A stretch of DNA of 28,669 nt from a virus. Under the pieces are notes generated by a model. The model ran no database searches. It was not told where the DNA came from and worked only from the letters and a program-made list of their open reading frames with translations. Both the position numbers and the translations under genes were made by a program. The stretch covers positions 1 through 28,669 of the IMG/VR virus record IMGVR_UViG_3300017708_000331, one strand, 5' to 3'. Shown in pieces: positions 3,298-15,079 of the stretch (position 1 is the first letter of the stretch; every line of letters starts with the position of its first letter).

Positions 3298-4343
3298 ACT
3301 TCACACGCCTCCTGATAAACTTCTGAAATGAGTTTCTTGAGTGCCTCCTTCTCCAGTGGGGTGTCATCGAATTCTGCTTCATCAACATAACGATTAAGGA
3401 TTGAAAGGGTATTCTCCTCAGCGTCATCGACCACGAAGTCATCAGACTCCTGGACATTGAAGTTTTCAACAACCTTGACATCCAGAGTGTCGGCAGTCAG
3501 TAGTTTCTCTACAAATTTATCAAACTTCTTCTGGTCTGTTTTCTTACGGACCACAACCTTGACAATCTTACCAGCGTATTGCTTTGCTTTGAGCATAGCA
3601 GCACTCTGGTCTTCGTAGTAGATTACATCGAAGAGATGGTATGGATTGTTAATGTATTCAATCTCTAGGGTCTCAGTATCCAACAGGATGAAACCACGAT
3701 TATCGTTTACATCATTCCAGAACATCTGGTATGGATTACCAATGTAGTGGATACGACCATCATCTGAACGAGTGTGGAAGTGTCCTGAGAGGACCTTATC
3801 AAACTTGTCGAAGATCTGATTGTCGAGTTTACCATCCTTATATTCCATACCTTTATAGGCATAGAAACCCGTGAGTTCTAGGTGACCCATAGCGATACGA
3901 GCATCAGTCTCACGAATCATCTTGAGAGATTGTGCCTCATTCTCTGGTGAGATCCAAGGCAGCATCAGGATGTCTAGACCGTGGACATTGATTTGTGTCG
4001 GGTCTGTATAGGTGTTGATGTTGTCGTAGTGCTGTAGGAGAAGACTAGGAGAGTTAGTATCGTTAGTATTCTTGTAATAGCAGTCGTGGTTGCCCACAAT
4101 CATATGGACATCATACCCCTTCATAGGGTCAAACATCACTCTACGCGCCCAATTAAGGGAGTTGTATTCAATTGTCTTCCGACTATCGAAAGCATCACCA
4201 AGATGGAGAATAGTTTCTACACCACGCTCTTTGATAGTGGGGAAGAAAACATTCTTGTAGAAGTTCTCAAAGTGGTCCTGTAGATACTTTACGCCTTTGC
4301 GGGCACCAATGTGTGTATCGGTGAGGATGGCGACAAGACTCAT
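3294..4343 (-). CDS. 47: gp47 recombination endonuclease subunit (Mre11/SbcD-like)
   Basis: This is the calcineurin-like phosphoesterase partner of gp46. Metal-binding motifs run in the family order: DTH at 9-11, GD at 49-50, GNHD at 84-87, GHLE at 153-156 and GHFH at 187-190. At 349 aa it matches T4 gp47 (339). The C-terminal third (about 250-349) is acidic and would cap or contact gp46. The ATG overlaps the gene 55 stop (ATGA) and the stop overlaps the next GTG start. The nuclease and its late sigma factor are thus made from one polycistronic message. All catalytic residues are present. Confidence 0.96.
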   Translation of the reverse strand: MSLVAILTDTHIGARKGVKYLQDHFENFYKNVFFPTIKERGVETILHLGDAFDSRKTIEYNSLNWARRVMFDPMKGYDVHMIVGNHDCYYKNTNDTNSPSLLLQHYDNINTYTDPTQINVHGLDILMLPWISPENEAQSLKMIRETDARIAMGHLELTGFYAYKGMEYKDGKLDNQIFDKFDKVLSGHFHTRSDDGRIHYIGNPYQMFWNDVNDNRGFILLDTETLEIEYINNPYHLFDVIYYEDQSAAMLKAKQYAGKIVKVVVRKKTDQKKFDKFVEKLLTADTLDVKVVENFNVQESDDFVVDDAEENTLSILNRYVDEAEFDDTPLEKEALKKLISEVYQEACEV

Positions 4344-4816
4344 TGGTTTAGTTTTGTAATAATGTTTTCTCGAATGGCATTATAGTCATTGCGATACTCT
4401 GATGTCAAGTTGCTGTCAGCAGTCATCAGAGACTCGAATCCAGTTCGTTCTACAATCTTGTTCTTAATATCGAGTTGACGCTTCTCTCGCTGGATTCTAC
4501 GAAGGAAAGCGTAATGAATAATCTGGGTGAAATAAGCAAATGGGTTCTTAGACTTGTCTGGATTGAAGTTATGAATATACTGAATACAATTCTCAATGCC
4601 GTCAGAGATCATGTCCTCACGGAACATATAGTTGACGAAGTTTGGTTTGTAACTCAGGTGTGTAGCAATCTTCAGGAAGCAAGAACCAAGATAGTTACTA
4701 ATACGGGGTTTCGGAAGATCATTCTGTTTAGCGTGCTCTACTTCTTCTCTATAGACAAGCAGGGCCTCTAGCAACTCTTTGTTGTTTACATAATGTTCGG
4801 ATTTTCTTCTAGCCAT
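4340..4816 (-). CDS. 55: gp55 late-transcription sigma factor
   Basis: This 158-aa protein is a divergent sigma70-family factor that lets host RNA polymerase recognise the TATAAATA-type late promoters, helped in T4 by the clamp gp45 and coactivator gp33. The central segment NPFAYFTQIIHYAFLRRIQREKRQ (about 91-114) is a region 2-like helix for core binding and -10 recognition. The charged N-terminus (MARRKSEHYV) and the size are close to T4 gp55 (185 aa). It is first in the 55-47-ORF-46 operon. An extended -10 promoter (4838-4846) precedes it, and late-type motifs elsewhere in the window are its expected targets. Confidence 0.93.
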   Translation of the reverse strand: MARRKSEHYVNNKELLEALLVYREEVEHAKQNDLPKPRISNYLGSCFLKIATHLSYKPNFVNYMFREDMISDGIENCIQYIHNFNPDKSKNPFAYFTQIIHYAFLRRIQREKRQLDIKNKIVERTGFESLMTADSNLTSEYRNDYNAIRENIITKLNQ

Positions 4817-4837: not shown

Positions 4838-4846
4838 ATTATAGCA
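4838..4846 (-). promoter_or_regulatory. extended -10 promoter upstream of gene 55
   Basis: The minus strand reads TGCTATAAT, a perfect -10 with an extended TGn element. No good -35 is seen at 16-18 bp. It lies 22-30 nt before the gene 55 start and probably starts the 55-47-ORF-46 message. It is back to back with the plus-strand promoter at 4861-4889. Confidence 0.6.
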
Positions 4847-4860
4847 TAATCTGATAGGAC

Positions 4861-4889
4861 TTGACAGGTGTCTCTAATCTAAGTATAAT
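4861..4889 (+). promoter_or_regulatory. perfect consensus sigma70 promoter on the plus strand
   Basis: TTGACA (4861-4866), a 17-bp spacer and TATAAT (4884-4889) match the consensus exactly. It points right, against every gene in the window. The predicted transcript would start near 4896 and run antisense into the 141-aa gene (4923-5348) and perhaps uvsW. No plus-strand ORF of convincing quality and no clear terminator follow closely. A 7-bp inverted repeat (TGTCTCT 4869-4875, AGAGACA 4908-4914) brackets the -10 and start site. An antisense or non-coding RNA is the simplest reading. Confidence 0.6.
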
Positions 4890-4922
4890 CGACCTTGTGG
4901 AGGTTAAAGAGACAGGGCTATA

Positions 4923-5348
4923 TTAATCATTAGGTTTATAATCTAACTTATAGAGATCTTCGAGTTTCTTTTGGAAAGACTTTACAGATCCCAAGTATCC
5001 AATAGAAGAGTTAGAGTCTCCTAGTGCTAGTGGACCATCGGTTCCTCCGCTCATCTTGCGAAAGTAACGAGTATAGTTCTGCATTACCTCCTCGTTCTCA
5101 ATCCGAGTAATAGCAATAATATTAGACAGGTCAATATCAAATTCCCTTTCATCAGTGGTTAGAAACCAGGGAACAAATCTTACTTTGAACTCACCATTCT
5201 TTCTTCTAATGTCCATAGACTCCACTTTGAGTGGGTCTTTAATACAGACATTATATCCTTCATCATCATTACTTTCGACTTTCATAATCATACAGACAAT
5301 CTCCTCACCAGTGCTGAGTTTGAGTGCCGCTACTTTACCTTCATCCAT
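4923..5348 (-). CDS. conserved hypothetical protein with possible Sm/SH3-like N-terminal barrel
   Basis: The protein is 141 aa. The start is well supported: GAGGT lies about 6 nt before the ATG, inside the last codons of uvsW, whose stop is only 3 nt upstream. The N-terminus (VAALKLSTGEEIVCMIMKVE...YNVCIKDPL, about residues 5-40) looks like the strand-turn-strand opening of an Sm or SH3-like barrel. That is a pattern impression, not a family match. A predicted polar, partly helical tail follows. Similar proteins are common next to uvsW in T4-like cyanophages as I recall, with no known role. It is coupled to uvsW, so it may act with nucleic acid. The plus-strand promoter at 4861-4889 would make RNA antisense to it. 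Confidence 0.75.
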   Translation of the reverse strand: MDEGKVAALKLSTGEEIVCMIMKVESNDDEGYNVCIKDPLKVESMDIRRKNGEFKVRFVPWFLTTDEREFDIDLSNIIAITRIENEEVMQNYTRYFRKMSGGTDGPLALGDSNSSIGYLGSVKSFQKKLEDLYKLDYKPND

Positions 5349-5351
5349 AAG

Positions 5352-6812
5352 TTACCTCAGGTTGATATTGATAATATCATAGTTAAACTTTTCACCGTTA
5401 TAGGTTTTGATTCTTTCTATTAGGTGATTCAATGTATAGTTTCGTTTGGACCCCTTAGTGGTGTCGTCAGCAATGTCATAAAGAATTGCCTTAGTTTTGT
5501 TTGCTCCTTTTCTCAGCACACGACCGATACTCTGGAGGTTTCTAATTCTTGACTTGGAGGGAGAAGCAAAGATTACGTTGTGGAGATTTTTGATGTTGAT
5601 ACCGGTACTGAATACTCCATAAGAAGCAATGATGACCGCGTTGTTCTCTCGCTCAGTAATTTCTCTGACTTGTTCCCTTTCTTCGACGTTGACTCCGCCA
5701 TGAACGAAGAAGACCTTTCGCCCCTCCTCTGCTTTACTATTTATTAGATCGTAGAGCAACTTGCCATGATTCTCCACACGAGTAAAAAGCACTAGAGTAT
5801 TACCTTTCAGGTCTACCGCTAGGTTGGATATGAAGTTGTTTCGTTTCTCGTGACCAATGAGATACTGAATCTCATCCTCATACCTCGGGAAGACTTGCTC
5901 ATCGTGCTTCAGAAGCAATACTTTGATGTCTAGTTTTGCTACGTGCCCTGCTTCCATCAGTTCTTTCGTTCTGATGGTATTGTATGAGGGACCAAACAGA
6001 CCCTCTAAGACCCACTTATGCGTCTGTGTGCCGTCCAGAGTGCCCGTAAAACCAAATCTATACTTCGCATCACAAAGTTTGCTCATGATGCTCACAAGCG
6101 ATTTTGACTTGAAGTTATGTGCTTCATCACCGATGACTACCTGATACCTGGAGAAATACTTCTTATCCAGTTTATAGACCGACTGCCAGGTAGTAATCAC
6201 GATGCCTTTTTCTGTAGTCAACTCCTTGCCACCATATATCTTATGGCAGTTCGTTGATACATCGAATCCGTAATCCTCAAAGTCCTTATACATCTGCTCC
6301 ACAAGAGATGTGGTTGGGACTACGAGTAAAATATTTAAGTTTCTCTCGCTGTAATATCTAACGAGAGAGTATATCATCAGGGACTTTCCTGATGCTGTTG
6401 GACTGACGATGAGTTTTCTATTACTGCGTAGGGCAGTGTAGATACCATGTAATTGATAGTCACGAGGCTTGTAAGAAGTAATAGAACCGATCCAATCTGT
6501 AATACCCTCGGGGGAGATATTGTCATTCTCCTCATACGGTAATCCATAAAATTTGTTGTCTTGGAATTGGTAAGAATACCCATACTGCTCACAGAAAGCA
6601 ACAACACGGTCCAAAAGACCCACATAGATCTGTTTGGTCTGTAGGTTGAATAGAGCAATGTTTCCGTCCCACCATTTCTTTTTGTAGGAAGGATGAAACT
6701 TTGCCCCCGGAACCTCGAAAGTAAAATTGTCTTTTAGTTCGTATTGTATATGAGGGTCACAGTCAATCTGTAAAAACACCTCATTTTTCTTGCTGATTGT
6801 CAAATCGGCCAT
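5352..6812 (-). CDS. uvsW: UvsW RNA-DNA and DNA branch helicase
   Basis: This superfamily 2 helicase unwinds R-loops and branched DNA, helping the switch from origin-dependent to recombination-dependent replication. Motif I (SPTASGKS) is at 137-144, the DEAH box at 229-232, motif III (FTGT) at 255-258, and motif VI (QSIGRVLRKG) at 427-436 with arginine fingers. The N-terminal domain (1-110) contains PSYKKKWWDGNIALFN, typical of UvsW substrate-binding regions. The length of 486 aa is close to T4 UvsW (503 aa). A GCTAAATA motif at 6836-6843 lies 24-31 nt before the start. All helicase motifs are present. Confidence 0.96.
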   Translation of the reverse strand: MADLTISKKNEVFLQIDCDPHIQYELKDNFTFEVPGAKFHPSYKKKWWDGNIALFNLQTKQIYVGLLDRVVAFCEQYGYSYQFQDNKFYGLPYEENDNISPEGITDWIGSITSYKPRDYQLHGIYTALRSNRKLIVSPTASGKSLMIYSLVRYYSERNLNILLVVPTTSLVEQMYKDFEDYGFDVSTNCHKIYGGKELTTEKGIVITTWQSVYKLDKKYFSRYQVVIGDEAHNFKSKSLVSIMSKLCDAKYRFGFTGTLDGTQTHKWVLEGLFGPSYNTIRTKELMEAGHVAKLDIKVLLLKHDEQVFPRYEDEIQYLIGHEKRNNFISNLAVDLKGNTLVLFTRVENHGKLLYDLINSKAEEGRKVFFVHGGVNVEEREQVREITERENNAVIIASYGVFSTGINIKNLHNVIFASPSKSRIRNLQSIGRVLRKGANKTKAILYDIADDTTKGSKRNYTLNHLIERIKTYNGEKFNYDIININLR

Positions 6813-9230: not shown

Positions 9231-9257
9231 AAAAAAAGACCCCCCTTTCGGGAGGTC
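9231..9257 (-). terminator. terminator of the major capsid gene
   Basis: On the minus strand the stem GACCTCCC / GGGGGGTC (one G-T pair) with a GAAA tetraloop occupies 9257-9238 and is followed by seven T. A further 6-bp hairpin (AAACTC-CGAC-GAGTTT, 9271-9286) precedes it. Strong termination fits the most heavily expressed phage gene. Confidence 0.92.
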
Positions 9258-9291
9258 TCGTGTGTAAAATAAACTCGTCGGAGTTTTGGAT

Positions 9292-15031: not shown

Positions 15032-15056
15032 AAAAAAAGGGGTCCTGATGGACCCC
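15032..15056 (-). terminator. terminator of the tail tube gene
   Basis: On the minus strand a perfect 7-bp stem GGGGTCC / GGACCCC with loop ATCA is followed by seven T. It lies 24 nt after the gene 19 stop. Confidence 0.92.
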
Positions 15057-15079
15057 CTTGTGACAGATGTATTTTTGGT

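Follow-up and report, generated by a model that had tools for sequence, protein, structure and literature searches.

The window, by which we mean the whole stretch of DNA analyzed, is a 28,669-base virus contig from a T4-like cyanophage whose nearest isolates, judged by gp55, are ACG-2014f and S-CAM7. As an earlier annotation of this DNA (the original prediction) had claimed, all of its confident genes lie on the minus strand. These include gp55, encoding the late sigma factor (4340-4816, minus strand; PHROG 234, E 1e-67; 84.7% identity to ACG-2014f gp55), a gene for a 141-amino acid protein, separated from gp55 by a 106-bp gap (4923-5348, minus strand), and the helicase gene uvsW (5352-6812, minus strand; PHROG 16 DNA helicase, E 7e-120), which carries the UvsW annotation in relatives. 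In a family alignment, 19 of 20 members of the 141-amino acid protein family matched the Pfam model PF16243 (Sm_like); the match of the window's own protein is weak (E 0.0015, below the curated cut-off), and the family profile found PDB 3BY7 with an E value of 4e-9. By these profile matches the family is Sm-like, and the "methylamine utilization" annotation given to the gene in relatives looks like a misnomer. In the cyanophage isolates that were fetched, the Sm-like gene is gp55's immediate upstream neighbor; a search of viral contigs with the 141-amino acid protein found no close relatives.

The gap contains the exact sigma70 match on the plus strand that had been predicted, TTGACA-N17-TATAAT at 4861-4889, for which dinucleotide-preserving shuffles of the window give a chance expectation of 0.01 per window. 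Its -35 box, TTGACA, occupies 4861-4866 and its -10 box, TATAAT, 4884-4889, with a 17-nt spacer between them; transcription would start at a TGT 7-8 nt past the -10 box (4896-4898, plus strand), most likely at 4896 or 4897. The coordinates bear out the claim that this promoter points at the Sm-like gene and uvsW and stands back to back with that of gp55. The latter comprises a -35 box, CTGTCA (4862-4867, minus strand), which overlaps the antisense -35 box by 5 bp, and an extended -10 element, TGC-TATAAT (4838-4846, minus strand), whose TATAAT (4843-4838) follows after an 18-nt spacer. The predicted transcript diverges from the gp55 mRNA and within 9-49 nt enters the upstream gene antisense, at its 3' end, crossing the Sm-like gene first and, if it continues, uvsW. 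Because of this divergence, gp55 mRNA started at the gp55 promoter itself could not pair with the antisense RNA, whose only partners would be upstream-operon or read-through RNA.

Other signals in the window lie on the coding strand. A second perfect sigma70 match, TTGACA-N18-TATAAT, is found inside the 3' part of gp55 (4379-4408, minus strand) and faces a gp47-like gene. Two strong hairpins with T runs that look like intrinsic terminators (9236-9259 and 15036-15059, minus strand) are likely operon ends.

Conservation of the probable antisense promoter

We compared the regions upstream of gp55 in the window and in 79 viral contigs, 80 in all. On the strand opposite gp55, TTGACA is present in 79 of them, the sole exception being a contig with a partial gp55 match (L045), and the spacer is 17 nt long in 76 of the 80. 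The -10 box occurs as TACAAT, TAGAAT, TAGACT, TATAAT or TAAAAT. Eleven or 12 of the 12 box positions are matched in 58 of the 80 regions, a level (11 of 12) that shuffles reach in 1.3%. A separate set from a second cyanophage clade, fetched with the S-RIM8 gp55 and not used in finding the pattern, has a few contigs in common with the first; here, the element was found in 68 of 69 distinct contigs. It also lies at the gp55 junction in 17 of 18 cyanophage genomes scanned; isolates that carry it are P-SSM2, P-HM2, S-CAM7, S-SRM01, S-RSM4, S-CAM1/3/9, S-SSM4/7, Syn9, P-RSM1, S-RIM2/8, ACG-2014a/d and SynMITS9220M01, and ACG-2014f has TTGCCA in place of TTGACA. The predicted minus-strand 5' end falls near 123698 in Syn9 (NC_008296.2), 124805 in P-SSM2 (AY939844.2) and 120709 in P-HM2 (NC_015284.1). 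Conservation of both boxes in relatives, which the original prediction had proposed as its check, is thus strong in all three samples and bears out its view of the element as promoter-like and antisense.

Similar arrangements occur beyond the cyanophages. In Sinorhizobium phage phiM7 the boxes read TTGACA-N16-TATAAT, with CAGGAATGTCCTG after them, and relatives among methylotroph phages (Melnitz-like) mostly have TTGACT or TTGACA, a 17-nt spacer and TATATT or similar, then TGC or TGT and GGGTTTGAG; 32 members of this set were unmatched by the pattern used. In some methylotroph-phage relatives (L141, L150, L154, L155, L158 and L165) TTGACA is doubled on the antisense strand upstream of gp55, 11 bp apart (TTGACA-N5-TTGACA), accompanied in L141 by CTCTTGACAAGAG; the arrangement resembles a direct-repeat regulator site. 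The MC09-like cyanophages (L100, L213-L252) mostly lack the antisense element, with a match in 7 of 31 distinct contigs, and offer a natural contrast for its function.

Across the 18 cyanophage isolate genomes, TTGACA-N17-TANANT occurs 159 times on the coding strand and 25 times on the non-coding strand, and 17 of the 25 exact non-coding-strand matches are the gp55-junction site. Because a control with the pattern reversed gives 26 matches in these genomes, both strands summed, the other eight are at or below chance. For P-SSM2, P-HM2, S-SSM4, Syn9 and most others, the junction site is the genome's single exact non-coding-strand match. The element therefore shares boxes and spacing with the host-like sigma70 promoters of cyanomyoviruses that appear as coding-strand matches, but differs in orientation, being the one non-coding-strand site above chance. 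Phage promoters on the non-coding strand can thus be under strong selection and yet escape gene-centered annotation. Host-like promoters were reportedly assigned to middle genes in the Syn9 transcriptome of Doron et al. 2016; that study was outside the literature we searched, in which no published mapping of an antisense start at the gp55 junction was found.

To describe the constraint, we calculated the information content per column for 72 representatives less than 75% alike. The -35 box is nearly invariant (1.9-2.0 bits per column). The -10 box reads TAnAnT, with T1, A2, A4 and T6 invariant and positions 3 and 5 the least conserved, a variation pattern that is sigma70-like. The spacer is mostly near zero bits, except for an A-rich patch and a G ahead of the -10 box. 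The element has these sequence features of a sigma70 promoter: TTGACA/TATAAT-like boxes 16-18 nt apart, a free spacer and strong constraint on T1, A2 and T6. We consider it very probably a functional promoter of the host-sigma70 type.

The gp55 promoter has TGn ahead of its -10 box in 67 of the 72 representatives, and its -35 box (TTGTCA) overlaps the antisense -35 box with a one-base offset in 48. That box lies 7-69 bp from the antisense -35 box in 21 lineages, so promoter competition would not be universal, and 10 bp to the other side, giving another overlap, in the remaining three. Where the one-base-offset overlap is missing (24 of 72), 23 lineages still have the antisense TTGACA and one has TTGCCA. 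Since the antisense box persists where the gp55 -35 box lies elsewhere, the alignments indicate that the antisense boxes are under selection in their own right.

The start-site block and the predicted transcript

Constraint extends past the core promoter. All 72 representatives have TGT (rarely TGC) at the expected +1, which opens a conserved, initially transcribed block, TGTGGAGGTTAAAGA in the window (4896-4910, plus strand; consensus TGTnnGGGTTnAAGgg). Information is high to about +14 and at background beyond; these roughly 14 conserved bases from the start, TGTnnGGGTTnAAG, usually lie within a dyad. The dyad (4892-4904) is centered near +1, with the arms ACCT (4892-4895) and AGGT (4901-4904) in the window, and in most lineages TGT is flanked by the pairs AACCT/AGGTT, AACTC/GGGTT or ACCCT/AGGGT. 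The arms form 276 Watson-Crick pairs, compared to 244 (sd 4) with arms reshuffled, a statistic that ignores kinship; in the TAGACT class they pair poorly. A core promoter requires neither an invariant TGT nor the GGTTnAAG block, and control of read-through alone does not explain them.

An operator is the best reading of the start block, because the left arm is untranscribed and the sequence drifts while the symmetry persists. From these patterns we tentatively regard the dyad over the start as a candidate operator, a role that it could well have; our search found no regulator acting there. Use of TGTnnnGGTTnAAG as a genome-wide operator was rejected, since its scattered matches are near the control frequency and the genomes show no recurrence of the block beyond this site. 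Among the imperfect pairs of the dyad that could be wobbles, 34 are G-T on the antisense strand and 0 are A-C, which speaks for an RNA hairpin; a 5' hairpin formed by the conserved dyad is nevertheless disfavored because the left arm, at about -6 to -2, is upstream of the expected start. The original prediction had assigned an operator or hairpin role to a different inverted repeat, TGTCTCT (4869-4875) and AGAGACA (4908-4914). That repeat exists, but the role is not upheld: an equivalent 7-bp repeat occurs in 3 of the 72 divergent representatives, the window included, and on this comparison the repeat is incidental.

Downstream of the block, little distinguishes the antisense strand from shuffled sequence. 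It contains no conserved ORF, and its longest ORFs are shorter than in shuffles, on which ground a conserved small ORF or leaderless peptide was rejected. The RNA foreseen in the original prediction would therefore be non-coding. In the cyanophage isolates, too, the genes lie on the opposite strand, so that the arrangement is that of a cis-antisense RNA, opposite annotated genes and with no ORF of its own. Intrinsic terminators are not above chance (10 terminator-like sites in 70 loci, compared to 7.4 in shuffles), and the 3' end may be made by another route. Folding of the transcript from +1 gave no excess stability over shuffles (mean z ca. -0.35), and no Rfam model matched it.

Possible modes of action

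We favor, as a reasonably likely reading of these sequence data, a host-sigma70 antisense promoter that is kept by selection, diverges from the gp55 promoter and acts in cis, affecting the uvsW/Sm-like operon and transcription that reads through from it into gp55. Host RNA polymerase would start near 4896-4897, antisense to this operon, and the polymerases would collide with those of the upstream operon or lay antisense RNA on it. Read-through into gp55 would then be limited, making late-sigma synthesis depend on the gp55 promoter itself. In the two thirds of lineages with overlapping -35 boxes, both promoters would also compete for one polymerase. A putative dimeric regulator at the start-site dyad could turn the antisense promoter off. 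Action in cis, rather than by a trans-acting RNA, is probable: it is favored by an RNA body that is free to vary, and it fits conservation that ends near +14 without an ORF, terminator or fold above shuffles. A more specific proposal is that the element is a dedicated antisense switch, conserved in marine T4-like phages that infect cyanobacteria and methylotrophs, perhaps also in those of rhizobia, in which a putative phage regulator at the start-site dyad silences antisense transcription and sets the timing of gp55; we regard this as unlikely.

Conservation of the first ca. 14 transcribed bases and not of the remainder is also what might be expected of a trans-acting small RNA whose 5' end, GUnnGGGUUnAAGgg, would pair as a seed with other messages of the phage or host; the adjacent Sm-like protein, whose family is encoded at this position in the cyanophage isolates fetched, might be its chaperone. 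This is unlikely, because the RNA has no conserved terminator, structure or body, and because conservation includes -6 to -2, positions ahead of the start that a seed could do without. A different view, that TTGACA/TANANT is a regulator's binding site for the gp55 promoter and that antisense transcription is absent or irrelevant, would account for the conserved dyad in the start region, for the near-palindromic CTTGACAAG and for methylotroph-type phages in which a further TTGACA stands 11 bp after TTGACA or TTGACT. It is improbable given that the spacing is fixed at 16-18 nt while the spacer sequence is free, that variation falls exactly at the weakest -10 positions, and that the coding strand shows strong enrichment of this motif. 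Antisense transcription might instead serve mainly to underwind the DNA and so activate the back-to-back gp55 promoter; the divergent geometry, which is kept even when the promoters are separated, and the unconserved RNA body agree with such coupling, but it leaves the start-site block unexplained and seems very improbable. That the antisense boxes arise as a side effect of gp55's -35 box (the near-palindromic TTGTCAAG) and chance is hardly credible and was rejected, despite the frequent one-base-offset overlap, since TTGACA is kept in 23 of the 24 lineages without it and the -10 box and start block are conserved as well.

Cyanomyoviruses lack T4's MotA and AsiA (motA, asiA; PMC2984593). The one antisense promoter predicted at their late-sigma gene, with its deep conservation, is a candidate for part of late-transcription timing in these phages; the original prediction had suggested that an RNA made from it might tune the switch from early recombination genes to late transcription. 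Antisense transcription in Kyanoviridae has been mentioned (PMC10976474). Cyanophage S-PM2 expresses CfrI (Millard et al. 2010, as described in PMC2984593 and PMC5931967), an antisense RNA of ca. 225 nt located at a homing endonuclease gene and psbA; according to a review, it was the first such RNA to be reported from T4-like phages (PMC2984593). CfrI resembles the RNA predicted here in being a cis-antisense RNA of a T4-like cyanophage that links neighboring sense genes; in contrast, the gp55-junction element lies at uvsW/Sm-like/gp55, is conserved group-wide at the promoter level and is a prediction from sequence. Antisense transcription over a T4-type phage gene has reportedly been found for T4 gene 32 (Belin et al. 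1987, cited in PMC2988021), a different gene. Plasmid pLS20 offers a parallel for the promoter layout: overlapping divergent promoters of different strength form a switch at a developmental decision, one of them making the regulator Rco (PMC4207663). Here, overlap of the core elements varies: it is seen in the window and in 48 of the 72 lineages, takes another form in three and is absent from 21. Whereas one pLS20 promoter makes Rco, the antisense product here has no ORF and would be non-coding.
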